DNA from: Flavobacteriaceae bacterium
GTDB lineage: Bacteria; Bacteroidota; Bacteroidia; Flavobacteriales; Flavobacteriaceae
Assembly (NCBI GenBank): GCA_018699935.1
Contig: JABISF010000034.1
Location: 1-64,000 of the forward strand
Direction: 5' to 3'
Length of the DNA stretch: 64,000 bases
The translations under genes were made by a program, and so were the position numbers. This document shows, in pieces, positions 53,488 to 58,072 of this stretch. The notes under the pieces are model-generated. The model was not told the origin of the DNA, ran no database searches, and saw only the letters and a list, made by a program, of their open reading frames with translations. The first letter of the stretch is position 1, and the number at the start of each line of letters is the position of its first letter.

Positions 53488-53907
53488 AAAGGATAAGATT
53501 TTAAGGTTAATAATTTTTAAAATAAATTAATCTTAGTTGTTTTGTTCGCTCTTAGCCCTTGATATTTTTTTTTAAAAACAATTAAAAATTTAAAATTCTT
53601 AAAAAAGAACCAAAAATTTTTAACTATATAAATTTTGTGTTTTATACTTGAATTCGTTCCCCAAAAAACGCATAACATTGAAATATAAAGAGAGGTTTTT
53701 TACTTTGCATGAGTATTGACTCCTGAAAGAAAAAAAGAATTAAAGCTGGAGCTTTAAAAATTCAAGATCATTAAATCGTTTGAAAAAAAGGATTTCTTTG
53801 ATGAAATTGTAGATACGTCTTTGAAGCGATTCTAAAAAATAGAATAGTTCTAAAATGAAATCCCATAAAATTTTGTGCTTTTTTAAAGAAAATTCTGAAT
53901 TAAACAT

Positions 53908-53936
53908 AAAAAGCCGACCTATAAAAAGTCGGCTTT
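53908..53936 (-). terminator. Rho-independent terminator after tRNA-Leu(CAA)
   Basis: aagccgac (53911-53918) pairs with gtcggctt (53928-53935), T-run on the minus strand. Confidence 0.75.
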
Positions 53937-54272
53937 GAAGTACCTTGGGTGGGAATCGAACCCACACTCCCGAAAGAACTGGATTTTGAATCCAGCGCGT
54001 CTACCAATTCCGCCACCAAGGCATTGTTTATATTTTTTGCGAATTTCGCGTAATTTTTCTTTTCCTACTCCTGATTTCCAATATTTTTCTCTCTCCCTTG
54101 CTTCAATTCTAGTTTCTATTATTTCAGAATATAATAACTCAAAAGGAGCGTATGGTTTTGTTATTCTTTCCCTACCGCTATTATGTCGTTTAATTCTTCT
54201 TGTTAAATTAGAAGTCAAACCCACATAAATATAATTTCTTTTTAAACTTGAAAGAGCATATACCCAAAACAT
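53919..54272 (-). CDS. GIY-YIG nuclease domain protein whose frame runs through tRNA-Leu into its terminator
   Basis: FWVYALSS...YIYVGLTSNLTRRIKRHNSGRE...TKPYAPFELLYSEIIETRIEAREREKYWKSG is GIY-YIG; tail CLGGGIGRRAGFKIQFFRECGFDSHPRYFKADFL is translated tRNA plus terminator. Confidence 0.85.
   Translation of the reverse strand: MFWVYALSSLKRNYIYVGLTSNLTRRIKRHNSGRERITKPYAPFELLYSEIIETRIEAREREKYWKSGVGKEKLREIRKKYKQCLGGGIGRRAGFKIQFFRECGFDSHPRYFKADFL
53941..54023 (-). tRNA. tRNA-Leu, anticodon CAA
   Basis: Reverse complement TGCCTTGGTGGCGGAATTGGTAGACGCGCTGGATTCAAAATCCAGTTCTTTCGGGAGTGTGGGTTCGATTCCCACCCAAGGTA. Confidence 0.95.
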
Positions 54273-54287
54273 TTCAAAATATCAATT

Positions 54288-54337
54288 AGCGCGCCTGCCT
54301 GTCGGCAGACAGGTCTACCAATTCCGCCACCAAGGCA
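54288..54337 (-). pseudogene. 5' partial copy of tRNA-Leu(CAA) interrupted by a 20-bp palindrome
   Basis: agcgcg (54288-54293) and tctaccaattccgccaccaaggca (54314-54337) are identical to the intact tRNA, with cctgcctgtcggcagacagg inserted between them. Confidence 0.92.
54294..54313. repeat. 20-bp imperfect palindrome CCTGCCTG-TCGG-CAGACAGG
   Basis: 8-bp arms with one G/T-type mismatch, 4-nt loop. Confidence 0.92.
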
Positions 54338-54520
54338 AAGATTAGATGGTTGTGCAAATGCCCAACCCGCTAAAACGAGCCCAAAAGTAATGATTTTTTT
54401 GGCATACTTTAAATTCAAAAAAATAAATTTTAGGTTTGCCACAAAAATTGACAAAAAACGAAATGCCCTTCCACGGTTTAAAAAAAAATTCATAAATTCC
54501 TGAATACTCATTAAAATCCC

Positions 54521-55732
54521 ATGAAAGTAATTTTTTATACTAGAGAATACCCTCCTTATGTTTACGGTGGTGCCGGTGTGCATGTTGAATATCTCGCACA
54601 AGAATTGTCCCAATTAATGGAAGTTGACGTTCGCAGTTTTGGCGATCAAAAAGAACAACATCCCCAACTCAGTGTTCAAGGCTATCCCTATGAAAATCCC
54701 ATTTTTGATGCTTCGGACAAAAAATTAAAAGGCGTCTTCCAAACCCTCAGCACCTGTATTCAGATGAATGGACAAGCGGTGGATGCAGATGTGGTGCACT
54801 GCCATACTTGGTATGCACAATTTGCCGGTATTGTTTCAAAACTTTGTTATGGCACTCCACTGGTCATCACCACCCACTCCCTCGAACCACTCCGACCTTG
54901 GAAAAGGGAACAATTGGGCAGAGGCTATGAAGCCTCCTCCTGGATTGAAAAAACAGCCATAGAAATGGCCGATGCCGTCATCGCCGTTTCCAAAGAAACC
55001 AAAGAAGATGTATTAAAATATTTTGAGGTCGATAAAGAAAAAGTAAAAGTGATTTACAACGGGATTCGGCTTGAAGAATACACTCCAACAGCTCAAACCA
55101 CTGCGTTGGAAAAATATGGAGTGGACAGCAGTAAACCCTATGTACTTTTTGTAGGGCGAATAACCCGCCAAAAAGGAATCATTTATTTGGTCAACGCCAT
55201 CCAACACATACATCCGGACACCCAGATAGTGCTTTGTGCCGGAGCCCCCGATACGCCCGAAATTGAAAAAGAAATGGAAGCTGCCGTAGCTGCCATAAAA
55301 AACACTCGCAGCAATTTGATTTGGATTGCCGAAATGTTGGACAAACCTTCCATCATACAGTTTTATTCGCATGCCGCTGTATTTTGCTGCCCCTCCATCT
55401 ACGAGCCTTTTGGTATTATCAACATCGAGGCGATGGCTTGCGAAACCGCCGTTGTCGCCAGTGCCGTTGGAGGAATCAAAGAAGTGGTTGTTCATGAAGA
55501 AACCGGAATTTTAGTACCTGTTGAACAGCATCAAGTGGCTCCTTTTGCACCCGTTGATCCGGAACAATTTTCCAAGGATTTGGCAGCTGGCATCAATCGC
55601 CTAATCGCCGATCCGGCACTTTGTAAAAAAATGGCGGAAAATGGAAGGCGCAGAGTAGAAGAACATTTTGATTGGAAAATCATTGCTCAAGAAGTGAAAA
55701 GCTTATACGAATCCCTAAAAACAAACTCATGA
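54521..55732 (+). CDS. glgM: GT4 glycosyltransferase, actinobacterial-type GlgA/GlgM (candidate maltose-1-phosphate synthase)
   Basis: TREYPPYVYGGAGVHVEYLAQEL; THSLEPLRPWKREQLGRGYEASSWIEKTAIEMADAVIAVS; VGRITRQKGI; CPSIYEPFGIINIEAMACETAVVAS; resembles mycobacterial GlgM rather than GT5 GlgA. Confidence 0.8.
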   Translation: MKVIFYTREYPPYVYGGAGVHVEYLAQELSQLMEVDVRSFGDQKEQHPQLSVQGYPYENPIFDASDKKLKGVFQTLSTCIQMNGQAVDADVVHCHTWYAQFAGIVSKLCYGTPLVITTHSLEPLRPWKREQLGRGYEASSWIEKTAIEMADAVIAVSKETKEDVLKYFEVDKEKVKVIYNGIRLEEYTPTAQTTALEKYGVDSSKPYVLFVGRITRQKGIIYLVNAIQHIHPDTQIVLCAGAPDTPEIEKEMEAAVAAIKNTRSNLIWIAEMLDKPSIIQFYSHAAVFCCPSIYEPFGIINIEAMACETAVVASAVGGIKEVVVHEETGILVPVEQHQVAPFAPVDPEQFSKDLAAGINRLIADPALCKKMAENGRRRVEEHFDWKIIAQEVKSLYESLKTNS

Positions 55733-56991
55733 TAAATAATAAAGTACTTTCCATTATCCTTGGTGGTGGTCAAGGCAGCAGACTCTATCCCCTCACCGAA
55801 TCTCGATCCAAACCTGCGGTGCCTATCGCCGGAAAATATCGTTTGGTGGATATTCCCATTTCGAACTGTATCAATTCCGACATCAAGCGAATGTTTGTAC
55901 TGACGCAGTTTAATTCTGCTTCCCTGAACAGACACATCAAAAACACTTTCCATTTTAGTTTTTTTAGTGCGGCTTTTGTAGACGTATTGGCAGCAGAGCA
56001 AACTCCCGAAAACAAAACCTGGTTTCAAGGAACGGCAGATGCCGTCCGACAAAGTATGCATCATTTTCTTTCGCACGATTTTGAATACGCCCTCATCCTT
56101 TCTGGGGATCAGCTCTACCAAATGGATTTTAACGATATGGTGGAAGCACATATCGCTCAAAAGGCCGAAATCACTATCGCCACTTTGCCCGTTGGTGAAA
56201 AGGAAGCGCCTAGCTTTGGGATTTTAAAAACCGATGAAAACAATATCATTACTTCCTTTGTTGAAAAACCAGCTGCCGCTGAACTGCCCGAGTGGGTTAC
56301 TCCCACCAGTCCAGAAATGCAAGCTCAAAAAAGAAATCACCTTGCTTCCATGGGAATCTACATCTTTAACAAAGATTTATTGGTGGAATTGATGAACGAC
56401 CCCACAACCAACGATTTCGGGAAGGAAATTATTCCGCAATCCATTCACACCCACAAAGTGCTGAGCTATCCTTTTGAAGGGTATTGGACAGATATTGGAA
56501 ATATAGATTCCTTTTTTGAAGCCAATATTGGCCTCACCGCCAAGCTTCCCGACTTTGACTTGTATTCCAAAAAAAGTGTCTATACCCGTGCACGAATACT
56601 ACCCACCTCTAAATTCTCCTCCACCCAGTTGGAACAGTCAATCGTTGCCGACGGTTGCATCATCAGTGCTGCAAAAATTGAACGTTCTGTGATCGGAATA
56701 CGCTCAAGAATTAGAAGTGAAACCACCATCATCAACACCTATATGATGGGGATTGATCGTTATGAATCTCTGGAAGAAATTCAAAATGAATCCGTGATTC
56801 CGGCAGGTATTGGAGAACGTTGTTTCATCAAAAACGTAATTATTGACAAAAACTGTCGTATTGGAAATGATGTACACATTCACGGATCAAAGGATTTAAA
56901 AGATATCGAAACGGATTTATATGTCATCAAAGACGGCATCGTGGTAATTAAGAAAAATGCAATAATACCGCACGGGTTTAGCCTAAAATAG
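55729..56991 (+). CDS. glgC: Glucose-1-phosphate adenylyltransferase
   Basis: LSIILGGGQGSRLYPLTESRSKPAVPIAGKYRLVDIPISNCINSDI; ATG at 55729 overlaps the upstream stop (ATGA). Confidence 0.96.
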   Translation: MINNKVLSIILGGGQGSRLYPLTESRSKPAVPIAGKYRLVDIPISNCINSDIKRMFVLTQFNSASLNRHIKNTFHFSFFSAAFVDVLAAEQTPENKTWFQGTADAVRQSMHHFLSHDFEYALILSGDQLYQMDFNDMVEAHIAQKAEITIATLPVGEKEAPSFGILKTDENNIITSFVEKPAAAELPEWVTPTSPEMQAQKRNHLASMGIYIFNKDLLVELMNDPTTNDFGKEIIPQSIHTHKVLSYPFEGYWTDIGNIDSFFEANIGLTAKLPDFDLYSKKSVYTRARILPTSKFSSTQLEQSIVADGCIISAAKIERSVIGIRSRIRSETTIINTYMMGIDRYESLEEIQNESVIPAGIGERCFIKNVIIDKNCRIGNDVHIHGSKDLKDIETDLYVIKDGIVVIKKNAIIPHGFSLK

Positions 56992-57088: not shown

Positions 57089-57118
57089 TTGTCTAAAAGA
57101 AAATAATTTCTAAATTTG
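57089..57118 (+). promoter_or_regulatory. Bacteroidota-type promoter TTG-N19-TAAATTTG upstream of prs
   Basis: TTG 57089-57091; TAAATTTG 57111-57118. Confidence 0.65.
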
Positions 57119-57139
57119 CAGACCTTTATAGGCAAGCAT

Positions 57140-58072
57140 TTGGAAACTCCCGTTAAAATATTTTCCTGTACACAAAGCCATGATTTGGCGGAGGCTATTG
57201 CCAAAGAATACGGCACGCCCCTGGGCAAAATCAACTTTTCGCGCTACAGCGATGGCGAATTTCAACCCTCCTTTGAAGAAACGGTTCGAGGAGCTCGCTT
57301 GTTTATTATTGGTTCTACCCACCCATCATCGGAAAATTTGATGGAAATGTTGTTGATGTTAGATGCTGCCAAGCGTGCTTCTGCCCGACATATTACCGCC
57401 GTACTTCCCTATTTTGGATGGGCACGACAAGATCGCAAAGACAAACCCCGTGTTCCGATTGGTGCCAAACTCATTGCAAAATTATTGGAGGCTGCCGGAG
57501 CAACGCGCATTATTACGATGGATTTGCATGCCGATCAAATTCAAGGGTTTTTTGAAAAACCGGTAGATCATTTGTTTGCTTCCACCATATTTTTGCCATA
57601 CGTAAAAGAACTAAACCTATCGGACCTCACTATTGCTTCTCCTGATATGGGAGGTTCCAAAAGAGCCTATGCCTATTCAAAATTTTTGGAAAGCGATGTT
57701 GTCATTTGTTACAAGCAACGGGCAAAAGCCAATGTCATCTCGCACATGGAGTTGATTGGGGATGTGAAAGGAAAAAATGTCATCCTTGTTGATGACATGG
57801 TGGACACCGCCGGAACCTTGACCAAAGCCGCCGATATTATGATTGAACGGGGTGCCCTTTCGGTACGTGCCATTTGTACACATGCCCTTCTTTCTGGCGA
57901 TGCTTATGAAAAAATTGAAAAATCCAAATTGGAATCGCTCATCGTAACGGACTCCATTCCTCCACGAAGAGCGCACCCCAAAGTAAAAGTCTTGAGTTGT
58001 GCCCCACTCTTTGCGCAAGTGATGAATAAAGTACACTTCAACAAATCGATCAGTTCGAAATTTATTATGTAA
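57140..58072 (+). CDS. prs: Ribose-phosphate pyrophosphokinase, probable TTG start
   Basis: VKIFSCTQSHDLAEAIAKEYG...YSDGEFQPSFEE; MDLHADQIQGFFEKPVDHLFAS; NVILVDDMVDTAGTLTKAA. Confidence 0.93.
   Translation: METPVKIFSCTQSHDLAEAIAKEYGTPLGKINFSRYSDGEFQPSFEETVRGARLFIIGSTHPSSENLMEMLLMLDAAKRASARHITAVLPYFGWARQDRKDKPRVPIGAKLIAKLLEAAGATRIITMDLHADQIQGFFEKPVDHLFASTIFLPYVKELNLSDLTIASPDMGGSKRAYAYSKFLESDVVICYKQRAKANVISHMELIGDVKGKNVILVDDMVDTAGTLTKAADIMIERGALSVRAICTHALLSGDAYEKIEKSKLESLIVTDSIPPRRAHPKVKVLSCAPLFAQVMNKVHFNKSISSKFIM

Follow-up and report, generated by a model that had tools for sequence, protein, structure and literature searches.

A very small GIY-YIG nuclease gene paired with a broken tRNA copy recurs at tRNA genes of many bacteria and appears to be an undescribed kind of mobile element

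A unit of about 400 bases, consisting of one very small GIY-YIG ORF and a broken copy of the tRNA gene beside it, was found to recur at tRNA genes across many bacteria. The first example was recognized at 53940-54336 (minus strand) of a 64,000-nucleotide stretch of Flavobacteriaceae bacterium contig JABISF010000034.1 (assembly GCA_018699935.1), referred to here as the window. In the window, the ORF lies between an intact tRNA-Leu(CAA) and a 5' piece of that tRNA (nt 1-29) split by a 20-bp palindrome. Among 90 relatives taken from hits in an even draw of Bacteroidia genomes, 75 lie within 300 bp of a tRNA on the same strand, and 54 of those 75 carry a fragment of that same tRNA on the far side of the ORF. 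Together with plentiful empty sites in related genomes, these results suggest a free-standing, single-domain GIY-YIG homing element of tRNA genes that keeps one tRNA intact, although cutting, repair route and hairpin role are inferred.

Features of the window at and around the GIY-YIG ORF
Position	Strand	Feature	Basis
53908..53936	-	hairpin plus T-run after the tRNA, probable terminator	read from sequence
53919..54272	-	GIY-YIG ORF, 117 aa in the open frame; homologous part about 54024-54272 (83 aa)	residues 1-71 match Pfam PF01541, E 1.6e-17; AlphaFold2 mean pLDDT 94.4
53940..54022	-	intact tRNA-Leu(CAA)	ARAGORN; Rfam RF00005, E 1.4e-12; 83 of 83 nt identical to the tRNA at five relatives' empty loci
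54288..54293	-	tRNA copy resumes (CGCGCT, tRNA nt 24-29)	sequence
54294..54313	-	20-bp palindrome CCTGTCTGCCGACAGGCAGG inserted at the D-loop/D-stem boundary of the partial tRNA copy	same 20-mer at the same tRNA position in 13 distinct contexts
54314..54336	-	partial tRNA-Leu copy GCCTTGGTGGCGGAATTGGTAGA, nt 1-23	blastn 100%; sequence
54521..55732	+	glgA-like gene, divergent from the tRNA; with the glgC-like gene at 55672-56991 it separates the tRNA from prs	product names from our reading of the translations
57116..58072	+	prs-like gene; in 27 of 29 relatives' loci its orthologue lies next to an empty tRNA-Leu(CAA)	product name from our reading of the translation

Both segments of the partial copy are identical to the intact tRNA, and a T precedes nt 1 in both copies. 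Homology supports only about the first 80 residues of the ORF: the frame (53919-54023) has no stop before the tRNA and runs through it into the terminator. Automatic annotation would give a protein with a tRNA-encoded tail. The palindrome occurs once in the window with up to 3 mismatches (0 of 100 shuffles had one) and once in the 2.17-Mb genome with up to 2. This genome is a fragmented assembly (85 contigs, 88% complete) with two other GIY-YIG matches, neither of which has a tRNA in its 3.2-kb stretch. Searches of the ORF product against NCBIfam and PHROGs gave nothing.

To determine if the arrangement was a chance occurrence, we searched named genome contigs with the window protein, which gave 80 loci. 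In 69 of 80 a tRNA lies within 600 bp, and by eye 9 of the other 11 also show tRNA pieces. Within 300 bp of the ORF there are 85 tRNAs, none on the opposite strand (64 kb), whereas farther than 1 kb there is one tRNA in 545 kb. By record title the hosts are mainly Bacteroidota, with Balneola, Ignavibacteriae, several Patescibacteria, WOR-3 and Stahlbacteria, although binning errors in such MAGs are possible. The recurrence of the same arrangement in scores of genomes shows that it is not due to chance.

For a less biased view, a profile of 27 members was run on 247 evenly drawn Bacteroidia-level genomes (same class), of which 96 have a match at E <= 1e-12. We fetched 90 of the listed hits, picked by us as 30 best-per-genome hits, 20 chosen arrays and weaker hits, and 40 weaker hits; two places occur twice in this set and one locus is the window itself. 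The 75 loci with a same-strand tRNA within 300 bp (median distance 46, 0 on the opposite strand) represent 22 anticodons, Met most often. Of the other 15, 6 still flank tRNA fragments and 9 show no tRNA or fragment at all. The far-side fragments matching the tRNA next door in 54 of 75 loci compare with 1 of 75 for the reverse complement, 7 of 75 for a distant region and 0.7% for tRNAs of other isotypes.

Two mirror forms of the unit exist. With the intact tRNA downstream of the ORF, as in the window, most fragments start at or near nt 1; with the intact tRNA upstream, most run to the 3' end. There were 54 upstream-type and 21 downstream-type loci. The fragments usually carry an added hairpin: 32 of 54 and 43 of 55 in the two sets, against 17 of 268 and 10 of 251 control windows. 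These 109 fragments pool the fetched set with the 80 named loci, and the hairpin test misses imperfect or long-looped hairpins, several of which are visible among its misses. In the Leu clade the insert is nearly always of the type CCTGYCTNCCGRCAGGCAGG at the D-loop end, or CCTGTCTACCGACAGGTAGA between T-stem and T-loop, while in the Met clade TCCGNN...NNCGGA-type palindromes follow the anticodon loop. A single conserved hairpin sequence was therefore rejected; a hairpin in the broken copy is conserved more widely than any one sequence. Units also repeat in tandem: ten at 457-bp spacing after one intact tRNA-Met, three each after tRNA-Leu(TAA) and tRNA-Met, and eight at a further locus.

To assess whether unoccupied versions of these sites exist, we compared orthologous loci in related genomes. 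In a group whose reference locus has the record title Polaribacter, 58 genomes were searched and 47 loci could be classified at the prs/tRNA-Leu(CAA) site: 42 were empty and 5 filled, with at least 5 changes on a prs tree. For that tree 5 loci without prs and 3 repeat fetches were dropped, and 2 rows lacking a tRNA were not classified. The filled-empty difference is about 300-400 bp between promoter region and tRNA, and one filled copy is degenerate. At L205/L227, a 44-nt 5' piece of the native tRNA-Leu is followed by a different tRNA-Leu (GCCTCGG acceptor) and no GIY-YIG ORF, perhaps a relic of another insertion type at the same tRNA. In a group around a locus with the record title Algoriphagus ornithinivorans, 59 genomes were searched and 30 loci fetched, 28 with the tRNA-Leu(TAA): 9 were filled and 19 empty. 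For the window, 29 loci from 29 relatives (28 same genus, 1 same order) hold the same tRNA without the ORF, and in 27 of 29 prs is its divergent neighbour. The window retains prs 3 kb away with the glgA- and glgC-like genes between, an insertion or rearrangement in this lineage, and the site looks orthologous but rearranged.

These results support the sequence-only reading, which proposed that a small element had invaded the tRNA and carried or regenerated an intact copy: other genomes show the pairing, the partial copy matches the adjacent tRNA, and empty sites are common. They add the mirror-image layout and show that the palindrome is not specific to this tRNA, other clades using other hairpins and other tRNA loops. 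That the duplication is recent, one of two alternatives offered in that reading, is not shown, because the site is rearranged and no close relative carries the element.

The protein was next examined for features of homing endonucleases. PF01541 was found in 27 of 27 aligned members, with invariant Y5, Y16, V17, G18, R26, T38, R55, R59 and G70 and nearly invariant E62. In the AlphaFold2 model all 83 residues of the window protein form one confidently predicted compact domain, and no separate DNA-binding domain is visible; only PF01541 was found, plus T5orf172 in 8 of 27 members. The nearest solved structures by sequence and fold are UPF0213, whose entries are described as hypothetical proteins, and Slx1, followed by I-TevI. 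The ORFs are under purifying selection: 10 of 12 close pairs give dN/dS of 0.05-0.26, one pair is saturated and one nearly identical pair gives 1.23. ORF relationships follow tRNA isotype, with 26 changes on the tree against a shuffled minimum of 65 (139 labelled rows), although few deep forks are well supported.

We consider it more likely than not, with moderate confidence, that the unit of about 300-460 bp is an intron-less homing-type element of tRNA genes, comprising a GIY-YIG nuclease ORF with no second domain and a partial copy of the target tRNA disabled by one or more inserted hairpins. One intact tRNA is left, so the insertion is tolerated. We infer that the nuclease nicks or cuts an unoccupied tRNA gene and that the break is repaired from an occupied copy, with the two tRNA copies as homology arms, which copies the unit in; repeated cutting or unequal crossing-over would yield arrays. 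The hairpin probably keeps the broken copy from folding as a tRNA and cuts the direct repeat into pieces too short for efficient precise loss, or masks it from the nuclease. In the window the ORF is probably expressed from the tRNA's own promoter upstream of the fragment, since almost nothing separates the conserved part of the ORF from the tRNA.

Some observations weigh against this model. The protein lacks a visible DNA-binding domain, and the intact tRNA should still be cuttable, so self-cutting needs an explanation. In the Algoriphagus group the fragment's variable arm and the second terminator match each species' own tRNA, which suggests in-place duplication or homogenization rather than import of a block. 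Transfer between hosts was assessed by synonymous distance (ORF against prs, 28 loci, 378 pairs), but the mean proportions of synonymous difference were 0.73 and 0.78, indicating saturation, and gave no verdict. Import of the whole tRNA with the element has at most one suggestive case: one locus has an acceptor stem (GCTCGAG) unlike its prs-tree neighbours, but empty sites with that stem exist elsewhere in the group. A simple target-site duplication was rejected, as terminator copies match in 26 of 51 upstream-type loci but leaders match in only 7 of 33 downstream-type loci (the fetched and named sets combined).

The nearest described system is SegB of phages T4/T6, a free-standing GIY-YIG homing endonuclease (PMC13096335, PMC2988022). 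SegB likewise lies beside tRNAs of many isotypes, has occupied and empty alleles, cuts within tRNA genes and drives recombination-dependent tandem amplification of the nuclease-tRNA segment, which makes the cutting step and the arrays plausible here. Its published motif RAWTSGAAC looks like the complement of the tRNA T-loop, although this is our inference. SegB homologues were surveyed in phages, whereas the present genes are chromosomal, the protein is 80-odd residues of catalytic domain alone, and each unit carries a hairpin-broken partial copy of the same tRNA on the opposite side. A phage origin was considered and rejected: one scan of viral contigs gave 4 relatives, one of them (1289-1596 of its contig) 3 nt upstream of a tRNA-Arg(ACG). 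Seg/Mob intronless homing genes in general (PMC2988022) share mobility without intron or intein and a proposed repair-driven copying, but lie between phage genes and cut at a distance, while here the insertion sits in or against a duplicated piece of the target itself. Group I introns in bacterial tRNA genes (PMC3984707) also combine tRNA targets with homing endonucleases; however, no group I match up to E 1 was found in 53600-54560, and the tRNA is present whole beside the ORF. No paper describing such chromosomal units was found by title or abstract start in the open-access literature searched, which does not cover most subscription papers and preprints. Given the missing DNA-binding domain, that the element works like a free-standing GIY-YIG homing endonuclease is better supported than that it is one.

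If this interpretation is right, one of the smallest types of selfish nuclease element lies beside essential tRNA genes in roughly two fifths of the sampled Bacteroidia genomes, and in other phyla by record title. It would provide a bacterial counterpart to phage SegB and raise the question of how a nuclease without a DNA-binding domain can be tied to one tRNA isotype. More tentatively, and in our view less likely than not, the units may represent a categorically new class of minimal bacterial mobile element, in which a catalytic-domain-only nuclease attacks essential tRNA genes, keeps one intact tRNA in place as the rescue and carries a hairpin-silenced tRNA part as homology arm. This would be in effect a natural cleave-and-rescue drive that has radiated over most tRNA families and several phyla.

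Of the alternatives, tandem tRNA duplication with a captured, host-domesticated nuclease gene survives best, although we consider it unlikely. In this case ordinary duplication made two tRNA copies around the ORF, one decayed, and the unit is inherited vertically and lost often, with arrays growing by unequal crossing-over and no role for the nuclease. The tracking of the local tRNA by fragment and terminator copies, the duplicated terminator in 26 of 51 upstream-type loci and the purifying selection are in its favour, as is the prs/tRNA-Leu(CAA) site shared by 27 of the named loci, as old inheritance would give. However, it does not explain why one small nuclease family sits at 22 different anticodons, always on the same strand and mostly with a hairpin-bearing fragment on the far side, nor the isolated filled tips among empty ones (5 changes for 5 filled rows).

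A hairpin-moving system in the manner of REP elements and RAYT transposases (PMC3733652), in which the GIY-YIG protein mobilizes the palindromes and broken tRNA copies are merely a preferred landing site, is less likely still. Within the 80 named loci the Leu-type palindrome occurs 60 times within 600 bp of the ORF (108 kb) and 2 times elsewhere (603 kb), but it is not restricted to the element: genomes carry 0-135 forward copies, with 0 in the reversed control, and in four of them CCTGYCTNCCGRCAGGYAGR is a dispersed repeat with tens to over a hundred copies. Genomes with the palindrome are enriched for the ORF (29 of 42 against 67 of 205, Fisher p 1.9e-5, not corrected for kinship), and the nearest folds act on branched DNA, judging by the titles of the Slx1 entries. 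In contrast, the window genome has the palindrome once, 13 of 42 palindrome-bearing genomes lack the ORF, 67 of 96 ORF-bearing genomes lack that palindrome (138 have neither), and other clades carry unrelated hairpins. The only domain found in the window protein is GIY-YIG, not an HUH tyrosine (Y1) transposase, and the palindromes sit inside broken tRNA copies.

A host-beneficial device, with array and spare tRNA pieces serving dosage of the tRNA or defence against attack on it, is suggested by the tandem arrays and by SegB-driven tRNA amplification in phage T6 (PMC13096335). This appears improbable, as the units amplify broken copies rather than intact tRNAs, presence is patchy with decay, and only a weak PADLOC match was found (UzuA, E 0.006, 23 residues). 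A relic of an integrase-type island is very unlikely: tRNA genes do appear to be classic island sites and one genome has a tRNA piece next to prs with the full tRNA about 9 kb away, but the filled-empty difference of about 300-400 bp holds only fragment and ORF, with no integrase gene or remnant in the filled sites compared here, fragments are 5' or 3' parts with inserted hairpins, and the same ORF family recurs at every site.

Five GIY-YIG relatives without a tRNA sit between other short sequence pairs, for example CCCCGTAGGATTTTTG before and AAATCCAACGGGGC after the ORF in one of them, perhaps representing a second element type with another target.
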